Assembly (NCBI GenBank): GCA_002011475.1
Contig: MTNP01000004.1
Span: forward strand, 1-54,623
Reading direction: 5' to 3'
DNA from: Dehalococcoides sp. JdFR-54
GTDB lineage: Bacteria; Chloroflexota; Dehalococcoidia; JdFR-54
DNA length: 54,623 nucleotides
Shown one piece after another: positions 4,247-44,740 of the stretch (its first letter is position 1; each line of letters opens with the position of its first letter). A program made the position numbers and the translations under genes. The notes beneath the pieces were generated by a model. The model was not told the origin of the DNA and made no database searches. It saw only the letters and a program-made list of their open reading frames with translations.

Positions 4247-4522
4247 TTAGGTTGTCCTGTGGCCGGAGTTGGCCCTGAATTTGTCCAAAATCCCCAGTTT
4301 AGCCAGTAGGCTAGCCGCCGTCTCCGTGGGCTGAGCGCCGCGTCGTAGCCAATAGAGGGCGCGCTCCTGGTCGATGACAATGGTGGCTGGGTCGGTCAGG
4401 GGATTGTAGTGCCCTATGATCTCGATAAAGGCACCATCCCGAGGCGCCCGGGCATCAGCCACCACCACCCGGTAGCTCGGCCTCTTCTTCGCCCCCGTCC
4501 GACGCAATCGAATCTTTACCAT
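4247..4522 (-). CDS. rpsP: 30S ribosomal protein S16
   Basis: Structural protein of the small ribosomal subunit. The 91-residue product begins [20 protein letters not shown], the standard S16 N-terminus, followed by [19 protein letters not shown] and [19 protein letters not shown], all conserved. It is the first gene of the rpsP-khpA-rimM-rex operon and has a near-perfect promoter at 4578-4606. The GC-rich coding style resembles the other core genes. Confidence 0.96.
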
Positions 4523-4577
4523 GCTCTTTCCCCGTATCTGACACCAAGGATGTTCATCAATTCACATATTATCGGTT

Positions 4578-4606
4578 ATTATGCGCCAAGAGAGGCCATA
4601 TGTCAA
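4578..4606 (-). promoter_or_regulatory. Vegetative promoter for rpsP-khpA-rimM-rex
   Basis: On the minus strand TTGACA (4601-4606) and CATAAT (4578-4583) are separated by exactly 17 bp. Transcription would start near 4571, giving a leader of about 50 nt before the rpsP ATG at 4522. One of the best matches to the vegetative sigma consensus in the window. Confidence 0.75.
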
Positions 4607-4821
4607 TATTGCACATAGGGAACTACCCGACATCTTCCGCCACAACCCTTACGCCCGTCAGCTCATGGATAAATTGAGGAAGCGAAGATTATAGCTGAAA
4701 GGAAGAATGAGGTTGCTAGTGCTTAGGCTCCGTTTAAGAGTTGGGCTGATGTAGTGAAGGGAGAGAAACAGGTAACTATGAGAAGATATAGTGGCTTCAT
4801 GGCTAACAAGATAGAAGGGAA
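4607..4821. other. Intergenic stretch without recognisable genes
   Basis: About 215 bp between the rpsP promoter and the next supported gene. I see no credible start with a ribosome-binding site, no RNA gene and no strong hairpin. It marks the change from the GC-rich core genes to the AT-richer patch. Confidence 0.4.
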
Positions 4822-5010
4822 CTACATTCCAACGATCTTAATTTCTATATCAAATGTAATGGGCATTAATTCGCCTTCCTGTGTTTTAGTTATGTACCCT
4901 ATTATTTCGTTCCTTTCGCTTGGTAAATACTCAAAAATAGTTCTTTCGACCTTCTCGCCTTTAATTCTAATCTTAGTTCCAAACGGTAAAAGATTCCATT
5001 TTCGAGACAT
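4822..5010 (-). CDS. Small unknown protein (62 residues)
   Basis: Short but likely real: the ATG is preceded at 6 nt by a perfect GGAGGT ribosome-binding site, with an extended -10 promoter further upstream at 5043-5051. The product starts MSRKWNLLPFGTKIRIKGE and has alternating hydrophobic and charged residues (KVERTIFEYLP, EIIGYITKTQEGEL, ITFDIEIKIVGM), consistent with a small all-beta protein of the SH3/OB kind. I do not recognise a family. It is AT-rich and divergent from the gene at 5152; the two share a 141-bp intergenic region with promoters facing both ways. Confidence 0.55.
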   Translation of the reverse strand: MSRKWNLLPFGTKIRIKGEKVERTIFEYLPSERNEIIGYITKTQEGELMPITFDIEIKIVGM

Positions 5011-5042
5011 AATAACACCTCCATTCTCTTTTCAGTAAGGAA

Positions 5043-5051
5043 ATTATATCA
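5043..5051 (-). promoter_or_regulatory. Extended -10 promoter
   Basis: The minus strand reads TGATATAAT, a TGnTATAAT extended -10 element, 33-41 bp upstream of the start codon at 5010. No good -35 is seen, which is common for extended -10 promoters. Confidence 0.5.
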
Positions 5052-5095
5052 CACATACAGAAGGGAGCTTGTTGCGAACTCCCCATAATAAATCT

Positions 5096-5125
5096 TTGTA
5101 TTCAACCCGTCGGTTGTTCTATCAT
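5096..5125 (+). promoter_or_regulatory. Possible promoter for the gene at 5152
   Basis: TTGTAT (5096-5101) and TATCAT (5120-5125) are separated by 18 bp and lie 26 bp before the start codon. Moderate match to the consensus, facing away from the promoter at 5043-5051. Confidence 0.4.
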
Positions 5126-5151
5126 GATGTTACCTTTAAAGGAGGTGCATC

Positions 5152-5637
5152 ATGGCCAAGTGCTCAGAGTGTGGGTTTTTAACAATGCGAGACAAGACAA
5201 ACGGTTTGTTGGTAGAAGCTATTGATGATTACAGGATATCTGGTAACGTTCCTACGTATTTAGAGGACTACGAAAGGTATTATAATTATCCAATTTGCTT
5301 CACTATGGCATATGACCTTTTACCAGAAGTCGAGGAGGCAGCAAGGAAGCAATTTTTTGACAAGAGTGAAGATTGGGGCAAATATGTTTTGGGTGTTATC
5401 ACTAAAGAAAGGGAATGCCCCCCTAAGGGCAAGGCACTTGGGTTTACTAAATATCAACAAGGTTTTACACCTAAGGAGCACAGAGAGATGTTAGATAGGG
5501 AAGAATGGCGTGATTGGCAAGAACGCCAGCGGAAGGCAGACAGGCATTGGCGTATTATTGAGATTGTCCTACTGGCGATCATTTCTGGTGGTTTTGTTGT
5601 CTTGGGCGCACTTATAGGGCGAGGCTATATACCATAA
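5152..5637 (+). CDS. Unknown protein with Cys motif and C-terminal membrane helix
   Basis: The 161-residue product starts at an ATG behind a perfect AAAGGAGGTG ribosome-binding site. The N-terminus MAKCSECGFLTMRDK carries a CxxC pair, possibly half of a zinc or Fe-S site, and further cysteines occur near residues 48 (YPICF) and 86 (RECPPKG). The middle is acidic and charged, with an arginine-rich helix (REEWRDWQERQRKADRHW), and the last 25 residues form a single membrane helix (IIEIVLLAIISGGFVVLGAL). This suggests a tail-anchored protein with a cytoplasmic domain. No function is recognised. AT-rich compared with core genes. Confidence 0.6.
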   Translation: MAKCSECGFLTMRDKTNGLLVEAIDDYRISGNVPTYLEDYERYYNYPICFTMAYDLLPEVEEAARKQFFDKSEDWGKYVLGVITKERECPPKGKALGFTKYQQGFTPKEHREMLDREEWRDWQERQRKADRHWRIIEIVLLAIISGGFVVLGALIGRGYIP

Positions 5638-5969
5638 ACTTAGGTTAGGTTTAGTCAACACAAATGCAACAGAACCATCCCGCAACATTCACAAAATGAC
5701 GCACCATATGGAGAGGGTACTGGAGGCAAAGGGGCTTTGCCTGGCAGCGGACATGCCAGTAATGCAAGTCAAGAGTTAGCCAAATTGGCGGAGGGCAGGC
5801 CCCATATTGACAAAATTGCTACGACTAAGAGGACATTTATCTAAAAACATTTGAGGCCGGATATGAAAGACCCAAGTGAGGAATCCTCAGCATCCTCCGC
5901 TGTCAGCCTCCGCTAACAAGCCAAAGAAAGGATACCCGTCAAACCGACTAATGAACGCGAATGCCTGTA
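5638..5969. other. Intergenic stretch, possible decayed coding fragment
   Basis: About 330 bp without a gene that can be started. One plus-strand frame is open from 5644 to the TAA at 5842-5844 and reads like a protein C-terminus (SQELAKLAEGRPHIDKI), but it has no upstream start or ribosome-binding site. It may be a remnant of a lost gene. The rest, to 5969, shows nothing recognisable. Confidence 0.35.
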
Positions 5970-5978
5970 TGCTATAAT
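5970..5978 (+). promoter_or_regulatory. Extended -10 promoter for the gene at 5997
   Basis: TGCTATAAT is a perfect extended -10 element (TGnTATAAT). It lies 18 bp before the ATG at 5997, so the message would have a leader of roughly 12 nt, enough to hold the GGGAGTGAG ribosome-binding site. Confidence 0.5.
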
Positions 5979-5996
5979 CACTGTTGGGAGTGAGCG

Positions 5997-6680
5997 ATGA
6001 CAAAACATGTGTGGAAATCCATAAAATTTGACCATTTCGAAGAAGAGCGGTTACCGTCGGGTACAACCCTAATCCATTGCTTTTTCAAGGACAATTTCGG
6101 AAACACATACAGGTGGACACCCCGTTGGAAGGAAATTGAGGAGATACTATTCAAATCGTCGGCAGTCGAGGGGAAGAACGAACCTGAAGGCATTTGGGAC
6201 GAAGAGTTGAAGAGGTTGGCTGACAGGATTCTGTATAAGCAGCACGACATAGAAGTATTTGAGAAGTCTGACTCCATTATGAGCGAGAAGGAGCTCAGAG
6301 CCCTTCTATACCGTTTAGACGCTGGAGGCCGCTACCACGACTCCGAGAGTTTGAAACTAGCCGAGTTTCTACACTTCTTCAACTACGAGAGCAACCAGTA
6401 TATATCGAGTAAGCTGCGGGACTTGGCTGACAAGATGTGCAATGCCTTAGGCGAGCTTGGCAAGTTCATGTGGGCCTCTGATGCCTTCTTTGACATTGGA
6501 AAGGGCGGGATGAACAAGTTATATCCAGCGTTTGAGATTATTGAACGGCGAGGGCTGAGCGAAGAAAAATATCGCAAACAGTTCAAAGAGTATCAGGATG
6601 AATTACAGAAACTCGTAGAAACCGCTTCGCAAGCCTACAGAGATTACCGTGTTCATGTTAGAGAAACACTGTTTCGCTAG
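5997..6680 (+). CDS. Unknown soluble protein (227 residues)
   Basis: Starts at an ATG behind GGGAGTGAG. The N-terminal part has a beta-rich start (TTLIHCFFKDNFGNTYRW) and then becomes strongly helical and charged. The C-terminal half (KYRKQFKEYQDELQKLVETA and the following SQAYRDYRVHVRET) could form a long helix or coiled coil. No signal peptide, membrane helix or catalytic motif is visible, and I do not recognise a family. It belongs to the AT-richer patch at 4.6-7.2 kb; downstream are broken fragments, so this patch may be an imported segment in decay. Confidence 0.55.
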   Translation: MTKHVWKSIKFDHFEEERLPSGTTLIHCFFKDNFGNTYRWTPRWKEIEEILFKSSAVEGKNEPEGIWDEELKRLADRILYKQHDIEVFEKSDSIMSEKELRALLYRLDAGGRYHDSESLKLAEFLHFFNYESNQYISSKLRDLADKMCNALGELGKFMWASDAFFDIGKGGMNKLYPAFEIIERRGLSEEKYRKQFKEYQDELQKLVETASQAYRDYRVHVRETLFR

Positions 6681-6754
6681 GCCCAAAAGATGGGAAACCC
6701 CGTCAAGTGGAGGCCCTCCACCGGGGGATTCTCACAGCGAAGAAAAGGGGTAGG

Positions 6755-6874
6755 ATGAAAATCGAAGTCTTGGAGCGCTTAGCGGGGAATCTGATGTAGA
6801 GCAGAGAGGTTCTCTTGTCGTTGTTGAGAAATTTGCAGAATGAAGCGCTGAGGGAAAAGGAAGAGAAGGTTTAG
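6755..6874 (+). pseudogene. Tiny ORF with an in-frame amber codon
   Basis: A single reading frame begins at an ATG behind AGGGGTAGG, codes 14 residues (MKIEVLERLAGNLM), meets TAG at 6797-6799, and continues in the same frame for 24 sense codons (SREVLLSLLRNLQNEAL and a charged tail) to a second TAG at 6872-6874. Both halves are amphipathic and helical and look like one small protein. Most likely a small gene disabled by an amber mutation; read-through is a remote alternative. Confidence 0.4.
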
Positions 6875-6935
6875 GGTGGCAGACCTCGACTTGGATAAGA
6901 TTGGAGTTACCAGCTAATTAAGGGAGGAGGTTATC

Positions 6936-7185
6936 TTGGCGATTAGAAGCCCGCAATCACAATCAGCGCATGATAAAGCAGTTGCGGACATTGCGGGAAG
7001 CATTCGCTACTTTGCAAAGCTCGGGCGTGTCGGCACGAATCCAGGGAGCGAGAAAAAACTACCCCGTTGACGGCCAGTATCCTAATATTGTCGTTCTGGA
7101 GTACGGCACCAGCAGGGTCATGGAAATCGGTGAAGCATGTGCAAAATGTAATATGGCGCCAAAAGGGGGTTGTGTCAGCGAGGAG
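6936..7185 (+). pseudogene. 5' fragment of unknown gene, frameshifted at an A6 run
   Basis: A strong ribosome-binding site (GGGAGGAGG, 6922-6930) precedes a TTG start at 6936. The frame reads MAIRSPQSQSAHDKAVADIA, continues to YFAKLGRVGTNPGSEK, and stops at 7068-7070. Removing one A from the six-A run near 7053 puts it into the frame that continues NYPVDGQYPNIVVLEYGTS and RVMEIGE. The join gives a plausible protein whose YPNIVVLE...EIGE pattern resembles the Asp/Glu strand region of small nuclease-like proteins, a suggestion only. The frame then runs into the 3' end of hoxU on the other strand, so this gene is both frameshifted and 3'-truncated. Confidence 0.5.
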
Positions 7186-7818
7186 TCATCTCTTCGCCGC
7201 CAGTGCCCCCACCGGGCATACCTGGGCACAGGCCTCGCAACCCTCGCAGCCCACCTCGGCCAAAGGCATATCGCCAAAGGTGCCTATCCTCCGCTCAAAG
7301 CCCCGGTTGATATAGCCCAGCGCCCCTATCCCCCGCTGCCGGCACGTCCAGATACACCTGTGGCACAGGATGCATTTGTTGGGGTCGAGGAGGATGGCGG
7401 GGTGGGAATCATCGATGGGGAACTCCCGCACCAACTGGCGGAAACGGCGCGACTTTAGCTTGATGCCTAGAAATCTGGCCAACCTTTGCAGCTCACAGCC
7501 GCCGCTGCGGAGGCAGTGGGCACAGTCTACGGGATGGCTGGCCAGCAGCAGCTCGAAGACGGTGGCCACTATCCGTTTTACCCGCTCAGTGGAGGTATGC
7601 ACCACCATCCCCCCGACCGCGGGCTCGGTGCAGGCGGTGACCAGCCCATCCCGACCCTCAATCTCCACGAAGCAGAGGCGACAGCCGGCATGGGGTTCCT
7701 CGGCCCCCCTTATGGCGCAGAGGTGGGGTATGTAGATGCCGTTGTCCAGGGCGGCCCAGAGCACCTTTTCGCCCTGGCGGGCCTGGACTTCCTTGCCATC
7801 TATGGTTAGCCTCACCAT
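7186..7818 (-). CDS. hoxU: HoxU-like iron-sulfur subunit of a NADH diaphorase
   Basis: Electron-transfer subunit of a bidirectional-hydrogenase-type or NuoG-like diaphorase. The 210 residues start MVRLTIDGKEVQARQGEKVL, a plant-type [2Fe-2S] domain with its cysteines at HLCAIRG, CRLCFVE and TACTEPA; then the His/Cys3 [4Fe-4S] motif (HPVDCAHCLRSGGCELQ); then two [4Fe-4S] motifs (KCILCHRCIWTC and CEGCEACAQVCP). The start at 7818 fits the family and has GAGGTG upstream; a longer frame to 7920 would add an unrelated leader overlapping hoxF. Only 5 bp separate it from the hoxF stop. No hydrogenase gene follows; the broken fragment at 6936-7185 directly abuts its stop. Confidence 0.85.
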   Translation of the reverse strand: MVRLTIDGKEVQARQGEKVLWAALDNGIYIPHLCAIRGAEEPHAGCRLCFVEIEGRDGLVTACTEPAVGGMVVHTSTERVKRIVATVFELLLASHPVDCAHCLRSGGCELQRLARFLGIKLKSRRFRQLVREFPIDDSHPAILLDPNKCILCHRCIWTCRQRGIGALGYINRGFERRIGTFGDMPLAEVGCEGCEACAQVCPVGALAAKR

Positions 7819-28681: not shown

Positions 28682-29821
28682 ATGCCGGGAAAGGTGGCTA
28701 TCGTGGGGGTGGAGCAGACCACACACGCTGAGAGGTTGGATAAGAGCGTGCGGGAGCTGGTCTATGAAGTGACCCGGGGGCTGCTGGACAAGCTGGGCCT
28801 GCGCGCCGATGAGGTGCAGACCGTCATCACCTCTTCCTCCGACTACTGGCAAGGCATCAGTTGCTCCAATGCCTATTATTTCGAGGCAGCCGCCTCTAAC
28901 CGGAAGGACGCCAGCAAGGCGGAGGAGGACTCAGCCTTAGGGTTTATATATGCCTGCATGCGGGTGCTGTCGGGCCATTTCCATACCGCCCTGGTGGTCG
29001 GCGTCACCAAGGGCTCCGAGATCCCCAGCCTGTCCACATTGACCAACCTGAGCGGCGACCCCTTCTATCAGCGTCCGCTGGGGGTGGACGACATCTCGGC
29101 GGCGGCCCTTCAGGCTCAGCTATATATGCAACGCTATGGCATAACCGAGGAGCAGATGGCCCAGGTGGCGGTGAAAAACCTGGGGAACGCCCTCCGCAAC
29201 CCCTTCGCCCACAGGAAGGGCAAGCTTACCGTGGACGAGGTGCTCCAGTCCCGGGTCTTGGCCTATCCCCTGCGGGAACTGGAATGCTGTCTGGCTTCAG
29301 ACGGTGCCTGTGCCCTGCTGGTGGCCTCGGAGGAGCGGGCCAGGGGGCTGGCCGCCAGGCCGGCCTGGGTCCAGGGGATGGGCTGGGGCACCGCTCACTA
29401 TTATCTGGGCGACCGGGACCTGTTGGGTGGTGCCCTGCGCCCGGCCGCGGAGAGGGCCTACCGCATGGCGGGCATCAGCTCCCCCAGCCAGCAGATCGAT
29501 GTTGCCGAGCTCTGCGAGCCCTTCTCCTATCAGGAGCTTCTGTGGTGTGAGCAATTGGGCCTGTGCCCAGAGGGCGAGGGCGGCCGATTCCTGGAGAGCG
29601 GGGCCACAGCCATGGGCGGCAGGCTGCCCATCAATCCCTCGGGCGGGGTGCTTTCCGCCAATCCCTATGTGGCCCGGGGGCTGATCCGCATCGCTGAGGC
29701 AGCCTCGCAGGTGATGGGGCAGGCCGGAGAGCATCAGGTGCCCGGGGCCAAAACGGCCCTGGCCCACAATATGCACGGCTGGGCCGGGCAATTGCACTCG
29801 GTGGTCATCCTGGGCAGCTAG
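28682..29821 (+). CDS. SCP2-type thiolase-family protein lacking the nucleophilic Cys
   Basis: 379 residues. Starts MPGKVAIVGVEQTTHAERLD behind GGAAGGAGG. The thiolase fold is recognisable: ELVYEVTRGLLDKLGLRADE, LASDGACALLVASEERARGL, LCEPFSYQELLWCEQLG, LPINPSGGVLSANPYVARGL and ALAHNMHGWAGQLHSVVIL. Aligning by hand to its partner at 29835, the position of the active cysteine (partner VATCGSTG) is an alanine or acidic stretch (SKAEEDSALG). It therefore probably cannot do ordinary Claisen chemistry alone and may be a partner subunit, or a retro-aldolase like Ltp2. Followed after 13 bp by the Cys-bearing thiolase. Confidence 0.85.
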   Translation: MPGKVAIVGVEQTTHAERLDKSVRELVYEVTRGLLDKLGLRADEVQTVITSSSDYWQGISCSNAYYFEAAASNRKDASKAEEDSALGFIYACMRVLSGHFHTALVVGVTKGSEIPSLSTLTNLSGDPFYQRPLGVDDISAAALQAQLYMQRYGITEEQMAQVAVKNLGNALRNPFAHRKGKLTVDEVLQSRVLAYPLRELECCLASDGACALLVASEERARGLAARPAWVQGMGWGTAHYYLGDRDLLGGALRPAAERAYRMAGISSPSQQIDVAELCEPFSYQELLWCEQLGLCPEGEGGRFLESGATAMGGRLPINPSGGVLSANPYVARGLIRIAEAASQVMGQAGEHQVPGAKTALAHNMHGWAGQLHSVVILGS

Positions 29822-29834
29822 GAAGGAGGATGCC

Positions 29835-31001
29835 TTGAGAAGAGTGGCCGTAGTTGGCTCAGGCCAGACCAAACATGGCCGACGGGACGATGTGAGCTAC
29901 CCCGAGCTGGTGCATGAGGCGGTGGCGGCTGCCCTGGAGGATACCGGCCTGACCCTAAAGGATATCGAGGCTATAGTCACGGGCTCCATGCCCTCTCCCA
30001 TGGAGGGGGTGAACGCCACCCACCTCTATTGGTCGGACGGCATAGGTGCCTTCTCCAAGCCCGTGCTCCGGGTGGCCACCTGTGGCTCTACGGGGATGTC
30101 CGTGGCCCACTCCGCCTTCTACCATGTGGCTTCAGGCCTGTTCGACGTGGTCCTGGCCCTGGGGGCCGAGAAAATGTACGAGGGCGACCCCCAAGGCACC
30201 ATGAATACTGTGGCCGAGCCCTTCTTCCAAAGGGTTTTCATTGGCGGGGCGCCCACCGTCTTCGCCCTCCAGTGTAATGCCTATATCCATCGCTACGGTA
30301 TCCCCGAGGAGAGGATCCGGGAGGCGGCGGCCAGGATCTCGGTGGCCCATCACAACAATGCCCTGGACAACCCCTATGCCCACATCAAGGTCAAGATAAC
30401 CGTCGATGACGTGCTGAAATCGCGGATCATCTCCTACCCGCTACGGTTGCTGGACACCTGCCCCAGCTCCGATGGCGCCTGTGCTGTGATCATGGCCTCC
30501 GAGGAGGCAGCCCGGAAAATCGCCAAGACCCCGGCCTGGATAAAGGACGTAGGCTACTGCGGGGATGAGCACTGGTTTGGGGATGCCGACAAGGTGAGGT
30601 GGGAGTCCGCCATCTTTGCCGCCCAGAGAGCCTATAAGATGGCCAAGATATTCGACCCGGCCAGGGAGCTGGACTATGCCGAGATTTACAACCCCTTCAC
30701 CTTCCAAGAGCTCCTCTACTACGAATGCTTCGGCTTCTGCGGCGAGGGCGAGGCCTGTAGCCTGGTGGAGAGGGGCGTGATCTTCAAGGAAGGGAACCTG
30801 CCATGTGACCTATCTGGAGGCGTCCTGGCCACCAATCCTATAGGAGCTAGCGGTCTCATTCGCGTTGCCGAGTCGGCCTTGCAGATAATGGGCAAGGCCG
30901 GTGCCCACCAGGCTCCTAGGGCGATAAACACTGCGCTGGCCCATGCCATGGGCGGTGTGGACCAGTTCAACGGCATCATGATCCTGGGAAGGGAACCGTA
31001 A
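29835..31001 (+). CDS. SCP2-type thiolase-family protein with candidate active Cys
   Basis: 388 residues from a TTG start with GGAAGGAGG before it; protein begins MRRVAVVGSGQTKHGRRDDV. The candidate nucleophile is the cysteine in LRVATCGSTGMSV near residue 80; other fold motifs are PSSDGACAVIMASEEA, YAEIYNPFTFQELLYYECFG, CDLSGGVLATNPIGASGLIR and ALAHAMGGVDQFNGIMI. Family members are acetyl-CoA acetyltransferases, degradative thiolases or aldolases working on CoA thioesters. It is between a Cys-less relative and a DUF35 protein, as in archaeal and actinobacterial complexes where DUF35 supports the thiolase. Substrate unknown. Confidence 0.87.
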   Translation: MRRVAVVGSGQTKHGRRDDVSYPELVHEAVAAALEDTGLTLKDIEAIVTGSMPSPMEGVNATHLYWSDGIGAFSKPVLRVATCGSTGMSVAHSAFYHVASGLFDVVLALGAEKMYEGDPQGTMNTVAEPFFQRVFIGGAPTVFALQCNAYIHRYGIPEERIREAAARISVAHHNNALDNPYAHIKVKITVDDVLKSRIISYPLRLLDTCPSSDGACAVIMASEEAARKIAKTPAWIKDVGYCGDEHWFGDADKVRWESAIFAAQRAYKMAKIFDPARELDYAEIYNPFTFQELLYYECFGFCGEGEACSLVERGVIFKEGNLPCDLSGGVLATNPIGASGLIRVAESALQIMGKAGAHQAPRAINTALAHAMGGVDQFNGIMILGREP

Positions 31002-31011
31002 GGAGGCGGCC

Positions 31012-31467
31012 ATGAGAGTACTGGAGACCGAGGTATGCCTGCCCTATAAGTTTGCCTATGGCTCAGTGAACAGTCGATTCTTCGAGGAGATGGAAAAGAA
31101 CCGGCGGATCATGGGGACCAGGTGCCCCCAGTGTCATCGGGTACTGGTGCCGGCCCGCAAGTTTTGTCCCAGATGCTTTGTCGACCCCGAGGAATGGGTC
31201 CAGGTGAGCGACCAGGGCAAGGTACGGACCTGGTCGCTGGTGAATTACAGCTTTGCCGGGGAGCCCAAGCCACCACCCTATGTGGTGGCCATCATCGACC
31301 TGGATGGGGCAGATGTGGGGTTTCTCCATTTCATCGGGGACATAGACCTCTCCGATGTGGAGAGGGTCAAGGAGGAGGTCAAAATAGGCTTAGCGGTCAG
31401 GGCGGTATGGAGTGAGCAACGCAGCGGCACCATCATGGATATCAAACACTTTGCACCGCTGAAATAG
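31012..31467 (+). CDS. DUF35 zinc-ribbon/OB-fold protein
   Basis: 151 residues: an N-terminal helix region (NSRFFEEMEKNRRIMGTRC), a rubredoxin-like zinc ribbon with CPQCHRVLVPARKFCPRCF, and an OB-fold with the GKVRTWSLVNYSFAGEP and PYVVAIIDLDGADVGFLHFI strands. DUF35 proteins bind next to thiolase-superfamily enzymes and are thought to bind CoA and channel the substrate. Tenth base after the thiolase stop; AAGGAGGCGG is the ribosome-binding site. The gene ends 44 bp before the tRNA promoter. Confidence 0.9.
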   Translation: MRVLETEVCLPYKFAYGSVNSRFFEEMEKNRRIMGTRCPQCHRVLVPARKFCPRCFVDPEEWVQVSDQGKVRTWSLVNYSFAGEPKPPPYVVAIIDLDGADVGFLHFIGDIDLSDVERVKEEVKIGLAVRAVWSEQRSGTIMDIKHFAPLK

Positions 31468-31552: not shown

Positions 31553-31626
31553 GGCCCCGTGGTGTAGCGGACTAACATGCCACCCTGTCACGGTGGAGAT
31601 CGTGGGTTCGAATCCCATCGGGGTCG
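31553..31626 (+). tRNA. tRNA-Asp (anticodon GTC)
   Basis: A cloverleaf can be drawn: acceptor stem GGCCCCG with CGGGGTC (one G-T pair), D-arm with GTAGCGG and ACTAACA, anticodon stem CCACC/GGTGG closing the loop CTGTCAC with anticodon GTC, and T-arm GTGGG-TTCGAAT-CCCAT. Discriminator base G, an identity element of tRNA-Asp. CCA is not encoded. No duplicated 3' end that would mark an integrated element was found downstream. Confidence 0.95.
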
Positions 31627-31711: not shown

Positions 31712-34700
31712 CTATTGGACCGTTGGCTCTCCTTTCCATGGGCTCTCCGTCTTGCCAAAGTTCATCCCCACCAGCACTAGGTCGAAGATGTCCACCAAGC
31801 CGTCAGCATTGATATCGGCGCTAGCTTCAGTCATGCCAAAGACCGCTGCCATTGCTACCAGGTCGTAGATATCGATAACGCCATTTTGGTCAAAATCGCC
31901 TGCCAGCAAAATGACATCGGGCACAGGTATTATCTTTCCACCTATCACCTCCACATCGGCTTTTTCAGCCGGCAGGTGGCCAGGCATGCTAGCGGTGACA
32001 TTATATGTACCCTCTGGTAACTGCTCAAAGGAATAGGACCCATTGATACCAGTCTGGGTCTGGCTTCCATTGACCTGGACGCTAGCGCCGCTGTGGTCCG
32101 GGCGGCCCTGGAGATAAAGCGTGCCCGTAATTGAACCCCACCCAGCGGAAAGGACGCTTGTGGTGGGATCATCGACCTCCGGGGTATCGGGGTCATCAGT
32201 CTTCAGCAGGCCTAATACCATCCCCTGGTTGCTCACCTCCGCACCCTGCTGGAGCGCAGGGTCAAGCTGCACACGGAATGCAATAACCCGTGTTGCGTTC
32301 CCCGGGATGGCGCCGTTCCACACCACCCGATTTGCCTCGGCCTCGTAACCCGTCCCGTCAGCGATATCATCATCGTTGGGGACGCCATCCACAGTGATGG
32401 ACTCGGGAACGTAAGAGGTGCCCTGCGGGAGGGGGTCCTCAAGCTCATTCAGCACGGTGTCCGGGACAGTAACATCGCTGTTGTTGGCGATTTGCACGGC
32501 GTATTCCAACAGGTCGCCTGGCAGCAGCGCGCCCCCGTCTACATCTGCGTCCCGCTTGGTCGCTTCCAGGTCCACAGGTGGGGCCTCAAAGCCACAGCCG
32601 AACTCCGAGGTATTAAAAACCCTGTCGGTCGCCGTGCAGGTAAACTTCCTTCCTGGGGAAGGCGGACGGCCAACCGAGGCGGTAAAACTCCCGTTTGCGT
32701 CAGTGTAGCCCCAAATCCAGAGCACTTGGCCTTGATGGTCAGGGTCAGAAAAGATCTCCACTAGGCACTCGCCGCAGGTAGTACCCACTAGCTTCCCTAA
32801 TACCAGGCTGCCCTCCGGTGGTGGCAGCTCTTCGTTGCCGCCGTTCATGTTCTCAATCCCCTTGCCCTGGTTGGCGTGAATGGAGTTCCGTGTAATCCAG
32901 TTGCTGACCGCATTTGGGCCGTCTACACGGACGCCGTCACGGCCATTAAACCAGATGCAGTTGCTACCGATTTCGTTGTCGGACGCTGAATCGGCGATGT
33001 GGACCCCATCAAGGGCGTTGGGGAGGGACAATTCCGTTAGCGTGTTGGTTATATGACAACCGTTTGTGCCGATGGCATTCTTAAACAAAGTGGTAAGCGT
33101 AGCATCACCCCGTAGGAGGATACCATGGGCATGGTTACCCCCGATAATGTTGTCGCAGATGTCCGTTTCAATACCGCCTGTGACCTCAATCCCTGCCCCC
33201 AGGTTCCCCAGGTTGGGCTCCGTTGTCGTGCCTTCCCGGTCGGTGCCGATCCGGTTAGCCTCCACCACATTGAGTTCCCCACCACGGATCAGGATCCCCG
33301 CCCCCTGGTTGCCCGAGATGATATTTCCTCCTGTACGGAGCCCAATTCTGTTTTCAGTTGAGTTTAGCACCTCCACGCCAGGCCCGCCGTTGGGAACGGC
33401 CCGGGCAACGCCTGCCCTGCGTTCAGGTGAGGGCACTGCAATCCCTATGCTGTTGCCCCAAAGCTCATTGTTTCCGCCTTCACTGATGCGGACGCCGGCC
33501 GCCCCGTTGCCAGAGATGAAGTTCTCCTCGATCGTTGTCAAGATTGTCCCCATGAGGTGGACGCCATTGCCCTGGTTGGGGATGGCGGCATCCCCATGTT
33601 GATTCAGGCCAATGAAGTTTTCCAGGATCTTGTTCTCTTCACCTCCAATGACCACGATTCCATCAAAGTTCCCGGAGATCACGTTGTTTGCCCTCATCAC
33701 ACTGCCCACAGGTGGAGGGCCGCCAACCTCGTTCCGGTTGCCATCTGCTATCAGGACGCCGCTGCCCAAGTTGCCCAAGTCCCCCCTGGTGCCATCGGTC
33801 CCGATGAAGTTCCCCTGGATGATGTTGTTGTTGCCCTGAGTTACCTCAACCCCATGCCAGGCGTTGCCGCCAATGGTGTTTTTGAGAACATAGTTGTTGC
33901 TGGCACTGAGCACCACGCCGCTGCCGAGGTTGGACAACCTTTTTTCGTGGTTCAGGTCTGTCCCGATGGTATTGAACAGTATGATGTTCTCCTCTCCCTC
34001 GCTTATCACAACCCCGTGGGCTCCGTTCCCCGAGATGACGTTGGCCTGGTCTGGCTCATCGGTAAGGGCGCTCGTCTCGCACTTCCCCTGAAGGAATTCA
34101 CGGAGGGTGCCGATGCAGTTGCGGTTTCCCCGGACGAGCACACCGTTGTGGAGGTTGCCCAGGCCTTTCACCCCGTTGACGTCGGTCCCGATGCGGTTCC
34201 TGTACAGGTCGTTCTCATCGCCGACGATAACCACGCCATTGCCCAGACCCGAAATCGGTCCGACCCCTGTGCTGGCGCTGACCACGTTGCCCCGGACGTT
34301 ATTACCATTAGCCTCCACCTTAATGCCACCGCCGTTGCCTATCCCCTGTGTGCCCGTGACGTCGACGCCGATGAAGTTGCCCTGCACCGTGTTCCCCGTG
34401 GCACTCACACGATCGGCTTCGATGAGCACGCCATAGGCGCCGCTGCCGGCGATCACGTTGCAGGCCCCGGTGCACGGCCCGCCCAGTTTCGTCCCGGCCA
34501 TGCCCCCAATGGTGTTACCCGATGAATCGACAATCCATACGCCTGAGAACCCAGCGCCGAGACCAAGGGTGCCGGTCACGTCGGTGCCCATGTAGTTGCC
34601 GAGAACCTCGTTTCCCGTGGTGTCAAGGAACCGAACGTGGTTCCACCAGCTCCCCGAGATGATGTTCCGTTCCCCTGGCGTGGTGCCTCCAATGGTGTTG

Positions 34701-35335
34701 CCCGTTGCACCTGCTCCAACAATGACCACCCCGACGGCGTTACCCAGTTCGTCGCCACTATCGGCTATCCCATCGGGATCGGTGACCGTCCCGGTTATGT
34801 CGGTGCCCATGAAGTTGCCCAGGACTCGGTTCCCCGATGCGACCCTGTCGATCAGAATGCCTTGCGTGGCGTTGGCCGAGATGAGGTTGCAGTCCCGGTT
34901 GCACACCCCAGGGTCATGGTCCGTTCCCCCGATGACGTTGTTGGAGCCAGTCACAACAATCCCACCCAGTCCACCAAAGGGATGCTGCCGGCCGTTGCCG
35001 AGGGCAATGGCGCCCGTGACGTCGGTGCCGATGTAGTTGCCTACAACGCGGTTGTTCGAGCCTATCCAGAGACCAGAGTCGAAGCCATTGATTACCAGCC
35101 CTTTCACCGTGCTGTCACTGCCGATGCGCAGACCGGCTGCGGCAAGCCCCGCCTTGCTGCCTTCCAGCTCGATAATCGGGCTGCCGGCGAAGCCCGGCTG
35201 GGTGGTGCCGTCAATGATCCCCGGGCCCCTCAACCCAGGCAGCTCGCGGGCCGGGCTGATCGTCTGCACCCCCGAGCCTATGCTGAAGTGAATGCTGTCC
35301 AGCCCTGGGTGGACCACTGAACCAAAGTGGCCCAC
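31712..35335 (-). CDS. Giant secreted-type beta-helix protein with DUF11 and dockerin-like domains, 5'-truncated
   Basis: 1207 visible residues. Residues 9-900: right-handed beta-helix built from many repeats of the form N-x-I-x-G-N-x-I-G-T-D. About 920-1065: a DUF11-like adhesive beta-domain ([20 protein letters not shown]). About 1067-1135: carboxypeptidase-regulatory-like domain ([13 protein letters not shown]). Final 60: a dockerin-like pair of calcium loops ([13 protein letters not shown] and [13 protein letters not shown]). No signal peptide: relatives begin with a longer part before [18 protein letters not shown], which here is the very start, so the 5' end is missing at the junction near 35.32 kb. 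Probably a cell-surface or released protein; no cohesin is seen. Confidence 0.78.
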
Positions 35336-38300
35336 GGAAGCGATGTATCAAGCTTCAGCAAAATTAGTTCGATACCTCTGCCAGAAATATGACATAGCTA
35401 TGGACAGAAGCCATATAGTCGGTCATGATGAGATTTATTCTGGGCCTGATCCTGGCCCGTACTGGGATTGGGACAAATATATGCAATTAGTGAACCGCCC
35501 GCCCACAGCCCCGACGGTAGACGTAACTCCAGACAGCCCCTTGACCACTGACGACCTAGTATGTACCATCACCATCCCGAGCACAGACCCAGACGGCGAT
35601 CCTGTTAGCTACTCCTATGCCTGGTACAAGAACGGGGCGTTGCAATCAGCGCTGACCACCAACATCGTTTCTGCCTCAGAGACAGCCAAAGGCGAGACCT
35701 GGAGGTGTGTGGTCACCCCAAACGATGGCACGATGGACGGGCCTTCAGCTCAGGATGAGGTCACTATCGTGCCACGGGTATGGCATGTCGATGACGACAA
35801 GCAGGACTACCCTGATGCCGACTTCACCAAGATTCAAGATGCGGTGGATGCTGCCAGTGCGGGAGACACCATTTTTGTTTATGAAGGAACCTACCACGAG
35901 AATATAGTCATACATAAATCGCTAAGTCTGATTGGCAAAGACAGAAACACCACAGTTATTGATGCAAATGGTGTCAAGAAAGGCATTCTCGTTGACAATG
36001 TTTGGGACAGTATAAGATGCTCAATCGAAGGATTCACGATAAGGAATTCAGGGGAAGGATATAGTGGTGGCATAGGGAATGCCGGGATAGTCCTACATAC
36101 TTGGGGAAAGGGCATCTTCGAAATTACAAATAACATACTAATAGACAATCCAGGTATGGCAGGAGGGATTCTTACAGATAGCAAAGGAACTATTTCGGGC
36201 AATATGATTTCAGCAAGCCCCCACGGCATATTCGTAACTCAGGGGTGCAACAACACAATTATAATAGGCAATTCAATAACGAATTGCGGGGTGGGGGTGT
36301 ACGTCCATTGGCAGTCAAACGCAATACAAATAATAAATAATACCATCGCAGCCAACCAGTCTGGGGTCTTCCTTGGTCCTCCGGGCAACCTGACCTACCT
36401 CAATAACTTCATAGACAACCAAGATAATGTTTCGTCTAATTCATTAAACACTTGGCACTCCCCAGAGGAAATAACCTACACCTACAACGGCAAAACCTAC
36501 ACAAACTACCTCGGCAACTACTGGAGCGACTACCCTGGAGGTGACGCCAATGGAGATGGGATTGGGGATACCCCCTACAGCATAGATGGGGACAAGGATA
36601 GCTATCCACTGATAGGGGTATGGAAAGACGGCGTTATCATCCCACCCCCTAACTACGGGGTAGATCTATCCTGGGGAGAACCCGAAAAACGGATAGGGCC
36701 AGGAGAGACCGCAAGCTATACTTTGACGGTCAAAAACACCGGTAACCGACAGGATACATTTGACTTAACCTGTTCTGACCCTCCATCCGGCTGGATAGCA
36801 ATTTTGGATGAAAACTCGGTGATCCTGGATCCGGAAGCTTCAACCGATATTACCTTAAGAATTACTGCGCCGTATGATGCTCAAGATGGTGACAAGGCTA
36901 CCATAACTGTTATAGCAACATCTCAAGGGGACTCGTCTAAGAGAGATTCAATCATTATTACCACGACTATCGGAAAAAATTGGCTTACCGGATGGAAATA
37001 TCGCGAAAAATTATCGATAGACCATACTAAAATAGACGCTGATTTAACTGATTTTCCAGTCGCAGTATTCTTAAATTCCAGTAACTTTGATTTCTCAAAA
37101 GCAAGAAGTGATGGCTTCGATATCAGATTTACAAGTTCTGACGGTGTAACCCTCCTGAAGTATGAGAGAGAAAGGCACGATGCTATAAATCAGAAAGCAG
37201 TATATCACGTAAAAATTCCTTTTGTTTCTTCCACAACTGATACCGAATTCTACCTCTACTATGGCAATCCTAACGCTAGTAACGGAGTCGATCCAGCCAG
37301 TGTTTGGGATAGCAATTTCAAAGGAGTTTGGCACTTGAATCAGGATCCTTCAGAGGTAGCCCCTCAAATCTTGGATAGCACAGCAAATAACAACAACGGA
37401 ACCTGTCAAGGTTCAATGGCCCTGGATGATTTGGTTGAAGGTAAAATTGGACAATGTCTAGAGTTTGATGGCTCAGATAACTATATTAATTTGCCCACAT
37501 CCTTCTTGCAAACGGGAGCCAACCCTTGGACAATAGAGGGGTGGTGCTATGCAACCGATAGCGATGAAAGATATATTTGGAACGCTGGGCCTTGGAAAGG
37601 TGGACAAGTAATTTATCTGGGGCAGCATGGAAAATATCTAGTTGGCTGGTATAGCGGAGGATTTGGAGATGATGCTTTAGTTACAAATACTTGGAAATAT
37701 CTGACTGCCACCTATGATGGAACTACCGTCAGGCTTTATGTTGATGGAGTGAGTTCTTGGAGTGAAGATGCTACCTTAAATTTACAACAACAAGATTGTT
37801 GGATAGGAGCCAGGAATTCAGATGGGGGTGCTGTTTTCAAATGGTCGGGAAAGATAGATGAAATAAGATATTCAAGGGTTTGCCGTTCTGACGCTTGGCT
37901 TAAAGCCTCCTACCATTCTGGAAATAATACTTTGTTGACCTATGAAGGAGATGGGCCTGGCGTTGTAACTGGCATTGTCCGCCTGCAGGGCCGCAATGAC
38001 CACAGCGGGGCCACAATTTCCATTCCTGGCTACGAGCCAGTCGTCACCGACGCAGCGGGCAACTTCAGCCTGACAGTAGACCCAGGCACTTATGAAATTC
38101 AAGCTACCATGCTCGGTTATCTAAAGGCGGTCAAGTCAGATGTCGTAGTAGAGTCGGGGAGCACAACGACACTGCCAGATGTGACCCTTTTGGGCGGAGA
38201 TGTCAATGGTGACCTGGTGATTGACATATCAGACTTAGCGACAATAGCATCGCAATTCAATATCGTGGTGTCGGGCGAGACGGTGGACGTTACCGCCAAT

Positions 38301-40580
38301 GGCATGGTGGACGTCTATGACCTGGTGCTCGTGGGGATGAACTTCTACAGAACCCGAAGCCCCTGGGCCCCGCCCGGGAAGATCGCTTTCGTGTCTGAGC
38401 GGGATGGCAATCCCGAGATCTATGTCATGAATGCGGATGGCTCAAACCAAACGCGCTTGACCAATAATCCGGAACGGGATCGGTGCCCTGCGTGGTCGCC
38501 GGATGGCGGCCGAATGAGCTTCACAAGAGGATATACGGGGATCTACGTTATGGACTCCAGTGGCCAAAATGAGGAAAAACTCATCAGCCGACATGCTGGC
38601 TGGGCAGCGGTATGGTCTCCCGATGGTAGCCGTATCGCCTTCGACTCCGGCGTGTGTGGACAGCGCGAAATCTATGTGATGGACGCTGATGGCGCAAACC
38701 TGACACGCCTAACCAATAATTCGGCAAACGATTCACATCCCGCATGGTCACCTGACGGAAGCCAAATCGTCTTCCAATCCGACCGCGACGGAAGGGATTC
38801 AATCTACGTGATGAATAGCGATGGCAGCGATCAAAGACCCCTCACGGACAACCTGGGAAACGATGGACAGCCCGCGTGGTCTCCTGACGGGAGATTCATC
38901 GCCTTCCAGTCCGACCGGGGCGGCGCCCGCAATATCTGGATCATGGATGCTGACGGCGGCAATCTGAGGATGGTTACCAATTTTGGATATGGCTGGTACC
39001 CCAGGGATGCAACCTGGCCCAGCTGGTCACCCGACGGTAGCCAGATCGCCTTCTATGCCTGGGTTACACAGGGCAACACCGAAATCTACGTCATAGATGC
39101 CGACGGCACAAACCTGATGCGTCTGACGCGCAACTCGGCACCAGATTGGGGTCCGACATGGTGGTCTCGCCCCTCTAAAGCGGCTCCAATACTGAGCTCC
39201 CCTTCCCACGTAGCTGGCGACCCATCCACTGATGGGAAAATGGTAGAACTATCGGGGCAGACATACCTTACAGGTAGCGCGCCGAGACTCCTGATTGACG
39301 GTAAAGGCGGTGTTAACATTGCTGGTAATATTGCTTCACTTCAGAAAGGGTTTTACCGCTTGACGGGGGTTTACGACTATGACACCAATACCCTGGACGT
39401 ATATGAGTCGGTCAAAGAGGAAGTAAAGTATCTGGCGATAAAGGCAGGCAAGGAACTTGACATCAACTTGGTGCCGGTCGCAGTGAAAGGGTTAATTGCC
39501 ACACCGCCCAGGGAAGTTGCAAATACTCTGACTTCCTATCTCTCAATCCCGAACTCCCCAAAGGATGTGCCTATCTACCCTTATGTCGTTTATGCACAAG
39601 ATGGATTCTATTTGGCGCTCTCTGATACTTTGGTCCACCTTCCTGCGGAAGTCACCCTCTTTCACGAGGGTGAAGAGTATAGCTTTACCTTCTCCGCTGG
39701 CCAAGTGAAAGGAACTCTCCTCAAGACCCCGCTTGAGGAAATAGAACTCGGTTCCAAGTGGCAGCCTGATGAGTTCGGCGGGGTGATCATTGCCGAGAAC
39801 ATACAGGCATCTAAACCAACGAATGCTACGGTTCAACAGATTTCTAATGACCCGGCTTCCTTTGCCTTTAAGAGAGTGCGTATCCATGGCACTTATGTAG
39901 TAGCTACGGCAACGGTAGATTACTCCGAACTGAAGATGCCTTTCGGGGTAGGAATTCTCGCTGATAGCCCTATTGAGCTCTTCTTTGAGGAAAAGGGGCC
40001 AAGGCTTGAGACCATAGACCCTGAAAGAAAGGTCTGGCAACTAAGGCAGGCAGAGGTCATAGGCACTGTTCTCTACCCCACGGAGGAGGTCCTGAAATAC
40101 CTGGACTACTCCGCTCCCCTGAGTGGCCAAGAGGTGAAGGCAGGGGTTAAGCCTGCTCTGATTGTGGACACCCTCGTCGATGAAGTAGTAGCTGTAGCCA
40201 ACATTAGTGAGTTAAACCCTGTAACAGGAAACCCACGCCAATACTGGGGAAAGGTGGTCGAGTTTGACGGCTACGCTCTTGGGGTTAATATTCGTCTCAA
40301 GGATGTGGTTGAAGCTATTGCGCAGACGGAAATACCTATCAACGTGAACATGCTAGCCATAGGGATTGCCGACAGCCCAGCGCTTGGGTCACAGCTGGCC
40401 ATAATAGGGCTCAACAATGAGCTTCTCGATAAAGGCGGAGAGACTATTGTGGGAAGGTTCATGTTCAGGGTAGCGGTTAGTGAAATGCCTATTAAACTGG
40501 TTGACATTGAAAGCGCTGACACGGCCTTTTTCCTACTGAGCAGAGAAGAACTGCCGATCAAGATACCCACGGAGCTTTAA
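35292..40580 (+). CDS. Giant multidomain surface-type protein, 5'-truncated
   Basis: 1762 residues as an open frame, but only from about 35328 is the sequence native. Order: tail of an N-acetylmuramoyl-L-alanine amidase (14-60; [19 protein letters not shown] with the zinc-ligand-type His), Ig-like (68-160), NosD-type beta-helix (160-443), CARDB-like (454-559), DUF2341 (562-690), LamG-type lectin (693-884), carboxypeptidase-regulatory-like (889-965), dockerin-like (968-1026; ending [11 protein letters not shown] as in the neighbour), six PD40/TolB-type propeller blades (1027-1293; repeats of [10 protein letters not shown] and AWSPDG), then 470 residues I cannot assign. The amidase head and any signal peptide are lost. 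Composition is more AT-rich than the core genes. Probably cell-wall or surface associated. Confidence 0.75.
35311..35333. other. Imperfect palindrome at a head-to-head gene junction
   Basis: GGACCACT (35311-35318) and AGTGGCCC (35326-35333) pair with one mismatch around a 7-nt loop. This hairpin lies exactly where two genes on opposite strands lose their 5' ends, as expected of a fold-back template switch, an inversion end or a chimeric assembly. Confidence 0.6.
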
Positions 40581-41411: not shown

Positions 41412-41888
41412 TTACTTCCCTTGGGGTTTGAAGTATTCTATATCGAGGATTGAGCCAGTCCGCTGGGCTTTGGGTTTGAACACCGCTTCCACTGGCATGC
41501 CGATCCTCGTCTCCTCAAGTCTCACCTCACCCAGCCTATGGACTATCCCACCACAAACACCATCAATTTGAACCATAGCCACGATTATCGGCTCCGGCAA
41601 TCTAGCGCCATCCAGGTCAAAGTGAGCGATGGTATAAGTATGCACCTTCCCTCTGCCCCCCACCTCAATCCATGCCTGTAGCTCGTTGAAGCAACGCTCA
41701 CAATAAATTCGCGGCGGCACATAAGTCAAATTACATCTTTCACACCTCAACCCCATGATCCTGCCATTGTCCTTAATCTCCCTGAAAAACCGCTCCCCCG
41801 CAATCCCAAAGGTATATTGTCCATATACCGGGATCTCGCCGTGGAGCGGCTTAGTCTGGCTGACCTGAACAACTTTATCTGCTGGCAT
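41412..41888 (-). CDS. DUF35 zinc-ribbon/OB-fold protein (second cluster, a)
   Basis: 158 residues. ERFFREIKDNGRIMGLRCER opens the typical DUF35 start; zinc ribbon CERCNLTYVPPRIYCERCF; OB-fold strands GKVHTYTIAHFDLDGARLPE and IIVAMVQIDGVCGGIVHRL. It follows the next DUF35 gene after 3 bp, the last gene of the cluster. Two different DUF35 proteins for two thiolases suggests that each thiolase has its own partner. Ends right beside the transposase remnant. Confidence 0.88.
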   Translation of the reverse strand: MPADKVVQVSQTKPLHGEIPVYGQYTFGIAGERFFREIKDNGRIMGLRCERCNLTYVPPRIYCERCFNELQAWIEVGGRGKVHTYTIAHFDLDGARLPEPIIVAMVQIDGVCGGIVHRLGEVRLEETRIGMPVEAVFKPKAQRTGSILDIEYFKPQGK

Positions 41889-41891
41889 CTC

Positions 41892-42401
41892 CTACCCCTC
41901 TATTGGTTTCCAGTATTCGATATCGGTAATCGCCCCTTCCCGCTCCGCCTCCGGTTTCCACACCGCCTTAACCCTCATCCCAATCTTTACCTGTTTGGGG
42001 TCAACCTCCCCTAATAGGTGCATGATGGCCACGCCACCGGAGCCATCGATTTCAATCAGGGCGGGAATCTGGGGCTCCTTTATTCGGTTGGCCATGGAAT
42101 CAGTATAAGCGATTGAGAAGGTATTGACCGTGCCAGTGTCTTTGAGGCGGATCCATTCATCTACTGTCCGAAAACAACACTCGCAGAAGGCCCGGGCTGG
42201 GAGCAATACCCGACGGCACTTGTGGCACTTGGTGCCCATAATCCTGCCCCTTTTCAACTCAGCGAAATAACGGCCATAGCCGATACCCGCATCCCAGGCA
42301 TACTTCAGATTAGGGTGCCACTCCGTGAGCAAAACCCTCTTTTCCGCGATATCAGCCTCTTTTAGGGCTGTTCCTGGCCATTCTTCGATTTTCTCACGCA
42401 T
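41892..42401 (-). CDS. DUF35 zinc-ribbon/OB-fold protein (second cluster, b)
   Basis: 169 residues. Zinc ribbon CHKCRRVLLPARAFCECCF, preceded by YFAELKRGRIMGTKC and followed by the OB-fold (GTVNTFSIAYTDSMANRIKE, PALIEIDGSGGVAIMHLLGE). The N-terminal 35 residues (ADIAEKRVLLTEWHPNLKYA) are longer than in its neighbour. It lies 10 bp after the thiolase at 42412 and 3 bp before the other DUF35 gene. Confidence 0.88.
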   Translation of the reverse strand: MREKIEEWPGTALKEADIAEKRVLLTEWHPNLKYAWDAGIGYGRYFAELKRGRIMGTKCHKCRRVLLPARAFCECCFRTVDEWIRLKDTGTVNTFSIAYTDSMANRIKEPQIPALIEIDGSGGVAIMHLLGEVDPKQVKIGMRVKAVWKPEAEREGAITDIEYWKPIEG

Positions 42402-42411
42402 AACTCCCTCC

Positions 42412-43569
42412 TCAAACTCCCACTACAATGACGGTTCCCACCTGCATCTCATCGCCCCAGGCCTGGGCAACGCCTTTCTTTGGTTTGCCCGGTACCTGCC
42501 TCTTTCCCGCCTCACCGCGCAGTTGCCAGAAAAGTTCAGCCACCTTCATCAGTCCAGCAGCAGCGATGGCATTGCCCACCCCGAGCAGTCCCCCCGAGGG
42601 GCAGGTGGGCAGATTGCCGGTTCTCTGGGTCACGCCATCGGCAGTAAGCTTTGCCGCCTCGCCCTTGCCACAGAGAAGAAGCCCCTCCATGTGGTGCAGT
42701 TCCTTATAATCAAAGGGGTCGTAAGGCTCAGCGATATTGATCTCTTTGCTCGGTTCCTTAATCCCTGCCATGTCATAGGCCATTCTGGCCGCGTACTCCA
42801 CATACTTAGGATAGTAAAGGTCACGCTGCCCCACATACATGGTATCCAGACACCAGCCAACCCCCTCAATCCATACCGGCTTATCGGTAACCCTCTTGGC
42901 CACATGTTCGGCGGCCAGTATGATAGCCACTGCCCCATCGCTGGTGGGGCTGACATCGAGCCGCTTAACCGGCCAGGCCATTATCTCCGAGTTCATTACA
43001 TCATCCACGGTGATTTCCGAGGCTAACTGGGCACAGGGATGATCCAGGGCATTCCTCTTATTCTTGACCGCGACGGCGGCGATCTCCCTCTCCGTGATGC
43101 CATGGGCATTCATGTAGCGATTCATCTCCCAGGCAAAAAACCAGAGGAGGCTCGTCCCCAGCGGGCTCTCGGTGAACTGGTCCCAGCAGGTAATGAAAGC
43201 CCCCTGGGGATGGGGCAGGCAACTGGACATCTTTTCCTCAGCAACCACCAGGCAGGTATCAAAAAGCCCTGAGGCTACATGATACCAGCCCTGACAAGCC
43301 ACAAAGACGCCCGTGCCACCGCCGACAAAACCCCTCATATAAGGCTTGCGCCAGGCTCCGGCGCCATCGCTGAGATACTCCGCCTTCATATGAACCATGT
43401 CAAAGGCATCGGGCGCTGTGCCCATAACCACACAATCTACATCCTTTAGGGTCAGCTCACACGAATCGAGCGCCATTTTAGCTGCCTGCCACGATAGCTC
43501 TTTCCCCGTCTCCAACGCCCGGCGCATAAACTTGGTCATCCCGGCACCAATTATGGCGACTTTGCGCAC
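42412..43569 (-). CDS. SCP2-type thiolase-family protein lacking the nucleophilic Cys (second cluster)
   Basis: 385 residues. I place the start at GTG 43569 (VRKVAIIGAGMTKFMRRALE) because AAAGGAGG sits before it and the longer frame to 43593 overlaps the upstream gene. Fold motifs: LSPTSDGAVAIILAAEHVAK-like block, AEPYDPFDYKELHHMEGLLL, LPTCPSGGLLGVGNAIAAAG and GVAQAWGDEMQVGTVIVVG. By hand alignment the active-Cys position is a glycine (GFVGGGTGVFVACQGWYHVA); the cysteine that follows falls nine residues later and belongs to a helix. Probably a Cys-less aldolase or a partner subunit. Confidence 0.85.
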   Translation of the reverse strand: MRKVAIIGAGMTKFMRRALETGKELSWQAAKMALDSCELTLKDVDCVVMGTAPDAFDMVHMKAEYLSDGAGAWRKPYMRGFVGGGTGVFVACQGWYHVASGLFDTCLVVAEEKMSSCLPHPQGAFITCWDQFTESPLGTSLLWFFAWEMNRYMNAHGITEREIAAVAVKNKRNALDHPCAQLASEITVDDVMNSEIMAWPVKRLDVSPTSDGAVAIILAAEHVAKRVTDKPVWIEGVGWCLDTMYVGQRDLYYPKYVEYAARMAYDMAGIKEPSKEINIAEPYDPFDYKELHHMEGLLLCGKGEAAKLTADGVTQRTGNLPTCPSGGLLGVGNAIAAAGLMKVAELFWQLRGEAGKRQVPGKPKKGVAQAWGDEMQVGTVIVVGV

Positions 43570-43585
43570 GGTGGCTTTCCTCCTT

Positions 43586-44740
43586 TCACTCATTGCTCAA
43601 GATTATCACGGCACCACTGTTAGTGGGGAGCCCGCGCCAGGATTGAGCTAAGCCGACTTTGACATTGGGTAACTGCCTTTTCCCAGCTTCGCCGCGTAAT
43701 TGAAGTACTACCTCTAGAACCCGCTGCAAACCGGTGGCCTCCACCAGATGACCCACCCCGAGGCTTCCCCCCGAGACATTGACGGGCAATTCGCCACCCC
43801 TTTGGGTAGCCCCCTCCTCTACCAGGGCGCCGGCTTCTCCGCGATGGCACAACTTGAGGGCCTCCAGGTGTTGGAGCTCTTTATAGGAGAAGGTATCGTC
43901 TATTTCCACAAAATCGATCTCTTTCCTGGGGTGCTTTATGCCGGCCATTTTGTATGCCATCTCCCCAGCCAATCGAGCGTAGAGGGCTTGACCCCAGTCC
44001 CTGGTTTCCAGGCCCGGCGTGTCTGAACACCAGCCAATCCCCCTTATCCAGATAGGCTTATCACTCAGGGCCTTAGTCTTCTCCTCGGCGGCTAAGACCA
44101 TAACGATCCCACCGTCGGCAGGACAGCTCATGTCCAAACGGCTTAGAGGGTAAAACATCATCTCTGAGCTGAGCACATCATCCACCCCTATCCGCTCACC
44201 ATAGGCAGCCTGGGGATTGAGCAAGGCATTTAGCCTATTCTTGACTGCAACTAAGGCACAATGCTCCTTCGTCGTCCCTGTCTCATACAGATAGCGGCTC
44301 ATCTCCATGCCGGCGATGAAATACGGATTAAGGCCAAGCGGCTTATTGTACACCGGGTCTAAGGCATGGGCCAGCAAATAGTTGGGGGTGAGCATGTTAG
44401 ATGCCTTGCTGTGGGACTCCACGGCCACTATATCCATAAGGCCGGTGCTTATTTGCATATAGCCGGCGATCAAACCATGAATGCCGTCGCCAGGAATAGT
44501 GTGGATGGGCTTAAGAACCGCACCTAAATTATCTGGGGTATGAATGTTGAAAATGCTTCTGCCGTGGGCGAAGTCCTCCTCACAAGTTACAAATCCGTCG
44601 ATATCGTCTTGGGGGCAAACCCCAGCATCCTCATAGGCCTTTGTGGCTGCCTCAAACATCATCTCCTTAAAGGAAACGTCGGGGGTTATCGACCTGAACG
44701 GTGTAAAACCTACACCAACAATGGCTACTCGCGGAGACAT
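43586..44740 (-). CDS. SCP2-type thiolase-family protein lacking the nucleophilic Cys (second cluster, first gene)
   Basis: 384 residues beginning MSPRVAIVGVGFTPFRSITP behind AAGGGGGTAAG. Fold motifs: MMFEAATKAYEDAGVCPQDD, CPADGGIVMVLAAEEKTKAL, EIDDTFSYKELQHLEALKLC, LPVNVSGGSLGVGHLVEATG and GLAQSWRGLPTNSGAVIIL. Where a thiolase would have its nucleophilic cysteine it reads HTIPGDGIHGLIAGYMQIS, so the cysteine is absent. First gene of a four-gene operon (two thiolases, two DUF35) with the promoter at 44805-44833. Confidence 0.85.
   Translation of the reverse strand: MSPRVAIVGVGFTPFRSITPDVSFKEMMFEAATKAYEDAGVCPQDDIDGFVTCEEDFAHGRSIFNIHTPDNLGAVLKPIHTIPGDGIHGLIAGYMQISTGLMDIVAVESHSKASNMLTPNYLLAHALDPVYNKPLGLNPYFIAGMEMSRYLYETGTTKEHCALVAVKNRLNALLNPQAAYGERIGVDDVLSSEMMFYPLSRLDMSCPADGGIVMVLAAEEKTKALSDKPIWIRGIGWCSDTPGLETRDWGQALYARLAGEMAYKMAGIKHPRKEIDFVEIDDTFSYKELQHLEALKLCHRGEAGALVEEGATQRGGELPVNVSGGSLGVGHLVEATGLQRVLEVVLQLRGEAGKRQLPNVKVGLAQSWRGLPTNSGAVIILSNE

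Follow-up and report, generated by a model that had tools for sequence, protein, structure and literature searches.

How two giant genes came to face each other head to head, with both of their 5' ends gone, was the question raised by this locus. A sequence-only reading had noticed the arrangement and offered inversion, fold-back amplification or chimeric assembly as its origin. The window analysed here is contig 9 in its entirety (54,623 bp). The draft genome to which it belongs totals 1,691,297 bp over 67 contigs, with a completeness of 93.85% and a contamination of 2.95%; judging by its fragmentation, it was probably assembled from a metagenome. A minus-strand ORF of 1207 aa (31712-35335) meets a plus-strand ORF of 1762 aa (35292-40580) head to head, with 44 bp common to both. 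Both frames stay open up to the join, with no stop in 1207 and 1762 codons, respectively, and no visible decay. Approached from either side, homology ended at TGGG (35306-35309), where the interiors of two unrelated genes are fused: beta-helix homology and amidase homology abut there, or overlap by at most about 3 bp, and both genes are cut within a conserved domain at this same 3-bp point. The two sides are unrelated to each other and have only a C-terminal domain in common, and both genes continue upstream in homologues. These results bear out the head-to-head junction of two gene interiors, but move it from the earlier placement at 35310-35328 to a narrower interval slightly to the left.

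On the right, the 5'-truncated plus-strand gene (35307-40580) carries, in order, the end of an Amidase_2 domain, NosD, LamG, CarboxypepD_reg, a dockerin-like segment (a label that is our own reading of the sequence) and PD40 repeats. Only the last third of Amidase_2 is present. The match covered profile columns 85-130/131, or 85-131 at 35319-35459, and the complete domain, as needed for a functional enzyme, is represented by columns 85-131 of 131 only. A first alignment with distant class-level homologues was uninformative and was superseded by an alignment of 24 amidase homologues from Actinobacteria, Chloroflexi, Verrucomicrobia and others. Their motif reads IEHEG(F/W/Y)... or closely similar forms, with EHEG in 23 of the 24 and ENE in one, L143. 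In the window SSPG stands at this place, SSP replacing EHE ahead of the glycine, and the amidase sequence therefore begins at the Gly codon 35307-35309. Upstream of the equivalent point the homologues had a median of about 145 codons (at least 97 in 23 of the 24, and 25 in one), counts that run to the most distal start codon and are thus upper estimates. Full-length homologues that begin at this very position, which the earlier reading had suggested looking for, were found in none of the 24.

The 5'-truncated gene on the left (31712-35308, minus strand) consists of beta-helix repeats, CarboxypepD_reg and a dockerin-like C-terminus, and is without the leader and the CTLRAAIQEAN segment. Its homology to relatives ended at 35308, where these have CTLRAAIEEANA and a leader; relatives in the class carry a leader and ...CTLRAAIEEANALAGADTINFSIGTGVQTIAP, in place of which the window has only a 20-residue segment. 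No obvious N-terminal leader was visible by eye in either ORF, in agreement with the earlier remark that neither gene has a signal peptide. With Amidase_2 partial and with homologues and relatives extending upstream, the proposed loss of both 5' ends also held. The CarboxypepD_reg and dockerin-like tail (...LVGMNF..) occurs at 31712-32150 (minus strand) and 37950-38370 (plus strand), as well as at about 10 other loci of the genome, and is possibly a shared surface-attachment module. Start codons are present at both edges (GTG at 35335 and ATG at 35292), which speaks for two complete, normal divergent genes starting at these positions. We consider this extremely unlikely, however: the overlap of the two starts leaves no intergenic room for two promoters, and both conserved domains begin mid-way where homologues extend further upstream.

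An imperfect palindrome spans 35309-35335 (plus strand), reading GTGGACCACT-GAACCAA-AGTGGCCCAC, with 10-bp arms, one mismatch and a 7-nt loop. Its existence, reported earlier as 35311-35333, was confirmed, but its location at the join was not, as it lies wholly within amidase codons (10 residues), to the right of the join and not across it. The predicted folding of the palindrome was ordinary (z = -0.93), and its grade is not special either, as 35 hairpins of this grade were counted in the window, compared with 16-25 in ten first-order Markov sequences. Being off the join, within amidase codons and of ordinary grade despite the window-wide enrichment of hairpins, it was rejected as the cause of the join. 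Across 1-54623, hairpins with 10-bp arms occur at about twice the Markov frequency.

Beyond the two giant genes, the gene order is mirror-like. Two thiolase genes and one gene for a ChsH2-type OB protein (28682-31467, plus strand) point at the join from the left, and two ChsH2-type OB protein genes and two thiolase genes (41412-44740, minus strand) point at it from the right. This mirror-image order (thiolase, thiolase, OB protein on each side) and the 27-nt imperfect palindrome adjoining the join would both suit a palindromic, fold-back duplication with the hairpin at its centre. The arms, however, are not inverted copies. Between the arms, the identity of thiolases and OB proteins was 32-39%, which does not exceed that of the two thiolases of a single arm to each other (about 40%), and a long inverted repeat was not found across the join flanks when the arms were compared by DNA and protein. 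At the DNA level the best matches between the flanks extended over 44 bp (86%) and 96 bp (70%); the longest inverted pair covered 66 nt (76%) and lay in the shared C-terminal domains, which are all that the giant genes have in common. Fold-back amplification was therefore rejected for a recent event, the off-join palindrome of ordinary grade also standing against it, and as an account of the locus it is almost certainly wrong. The mirror layout would instead consist of old paralogues, or would itself be a by-product of the join. Contig 27 of this genome has a further (third) thiolase pair. A tRNA gene (31553-31626, plus strand) separates the beta-helix gene from the left OB protein gene; foreign DNA commonly inserts at tRNA genes.

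A simple inversion between both genes would likewise set two gene interiors head to head, and would have joined the two 5' halves elsewhere in the genome. The search for these halves covered the 1.69-Mb, 67-contig draft by genome searches and selected stretches, with not all contig ends read base by base. Amidase_2 was found nowhere else in the genome, the sole match being the C-terminal piece at the join, and the N-terminal regions of the beta-helix relatives also matched the genome only at the join. Because neither 5' half was found elsewhere in the assembly, and the reciprocal 5'-5' product is thus missing from the whole of it, inversion as the origin is disfavoured and appears very unlikely. 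The missing 5' halves could lie in the absent 6% of the genome or outside the bin. A second copy of the join flank was not found in the assembly, and the exact junction 36-mer had no match in IMG/VR, a viral collection whose silence is weak evidence. None of the 22 genes examined between 23.5 and 54.6 kb codes for a recombinase, and the join has no direct repeat.

Composition also changes at this place. GC was 0.60-0.63 before the join and 0.47-0.49 after it; a drop of this size (0.13-0.145) was matched at 0.5-0.8% of sampled genome positions, and the 10-kb contrast at the join was reached in 2 of 34 sampled stretches. The tetranucleotide correlation to the genome mean was 0.93 for the left arm and 0.75 for the right arm; up to about 30 kb the contig has a composition typical of the genome, and the right arm has a GC of 0.55-0.575, lower than the left. 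Within this contig, GC steps larger than that of the join exist at 4.5 kb and at 7.2 kb, and contigs C3 and C10 contain internal GC shifts of comparable size. By dinucleotide distance the right arm lay at percentiles 49-89 of the genome's own stretches, just below every sampled foreign stretch. It belongs to the atypical tail, yet is inside the genome's range, and several other genome stretches are similar. When the window was compared with other genomes, at class level and beyond, the best relatives of right-arm genes, with identities of 77% and 62%, came from the same class; synteny of these class-level relatives with the left arm was seen in none of the eight stretches read. These results are compatible with a right arm that has a weaker genome signature and is of the same genome and class. 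Composition favours a discontinuity at the join without proving that two sources, or two genomes, are involved: the right arm falls inside the genome's range, and similar shifts occur in other contigs. A low-GC island at 4400-7300, in which two ORFs at 5152-6680 have a GC of 0.43-0.46 against about 0.6 around them, has the contig's sharpest GC steps at its edges.

A chimeric join in the draft contig is, in our judgement, the probable explanation, and of the three origins offered by the sequence-only reading it was kept as the best on the strength of the sharp two-sided break, the intact frames and the composition step. Two DNA segments that are neighbours in no cell, coming from two places of one genome or from two related genomes in the sample, would have come together by ligation or template switching in the library, or through a false bridge made in assembly. 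The join would have cut the beta-helix and amidase genes at arbitrary coding positions and set them head to head. Where genes are dense, a join made at random would be expected to cut two of them, and cells would more often keep intergenic joins. The cutting of both conserved domains at the same 3-bp point is what such a random join predicts, and neither long frame has decayed though both start regions are gone. The rarity of the GC step, the unequal tetranucleotide correlations of the two arms and the fragmented state of the source draft point in the same direction. Such a junction would be carried by no cell and would probably be without biological function.

Several observations weigh against a chimeric join. 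The shared stretch of at most about 3 bp is too short for a de Bruijn k-mer collision, the missing 5' halves were not found at other contig ends, and the join flank has no other copy in the assembly. The right arm, moreover, is compatible with the same genome by dinucleotide distance, has its best relatives in the same class and carries the CarboxypepD_reg-dockerin C-terminus found at some 10 other loci of this genome, and C3 and C10 show similar internal GC shifts. Because the homologies stop within about 3 bp and a shared word of at least 20 bases is not likely, pure k-mer collision in the assembler would be unlikely. Molecules spanning the join were therefore probably in the library, either as chimeric molecules or because the junction is present in cells.

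A junction present in cells would mean a recent real rearrangement, in which two giant surface (secreted)-protein genes were fused through their interiors, in inverted orientation and with loss of both 5' parts, by end joining or illegitimate recombination. The blunt join with 0-3 bp of overlap is as in end joining, both 5' halves are missing from an assembly that is 94% complete, and the sharp two-sided break makes a k-mer-collision misjoin unlikely. Both arms are also compatible with one genome, with right-arm relatives in the same class, and the two genes have C-terminal modules in common. Against this, the composition step falls exactly at the join, and with neither frame decayed, a real event could only be very recent. 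We regard a real rearrangement as the chief competitor of the chimeric reading, possible but somewhat doubtful; its outcome, equally tentative, would be two non-secreted gene remnants in a little-sampled order.

The chimeric reading has direct consequences for the use of this contig, which needs splitting, or a read check at 35306-35309, before its gene order is used. The same caution applies to the mirror-like thiolase layout and to the membership of the right arm in the genome. The join is not a new kind of element, and, were it real, it would amount to an ordinary rearrangement that disrupts genes.

Among known systems, the right side of the join is like N-acetylmuramoyl-L-alanine amidase (Amidase_2, PF01510) in keeping the last third with the GHDEI...DPGPYWDWD motif, and differs in being without the first 84 of 131 profile columns, the IEHE motif included. 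The left side shares the repeat region from PGLDSIHF onward with right-handed beta-helix proteins that have a CTLRAAIQEAN leader segment, whereas the leader and the CTLRAAI segment are missing in the window. For the join itself, amplification chimeras offer one comparison: they are mostly inverted joins with the intervening sequence missing and 2-21 nt of complementarity (PMC1855051). The join in the window shares 0-3 bp, in which it differs from these Phi29 chimeras; it resembles them in that the join is inverted, the intervening sequence is missing and the shared stretch is very short. Chimeric contigs are also readily built from low- and intermediate-coverage species in metagenome assemblies (PMC7881036), and the window is like these in that two segments are joined without a repeat-flanked biological element in a draft of low contiguity.
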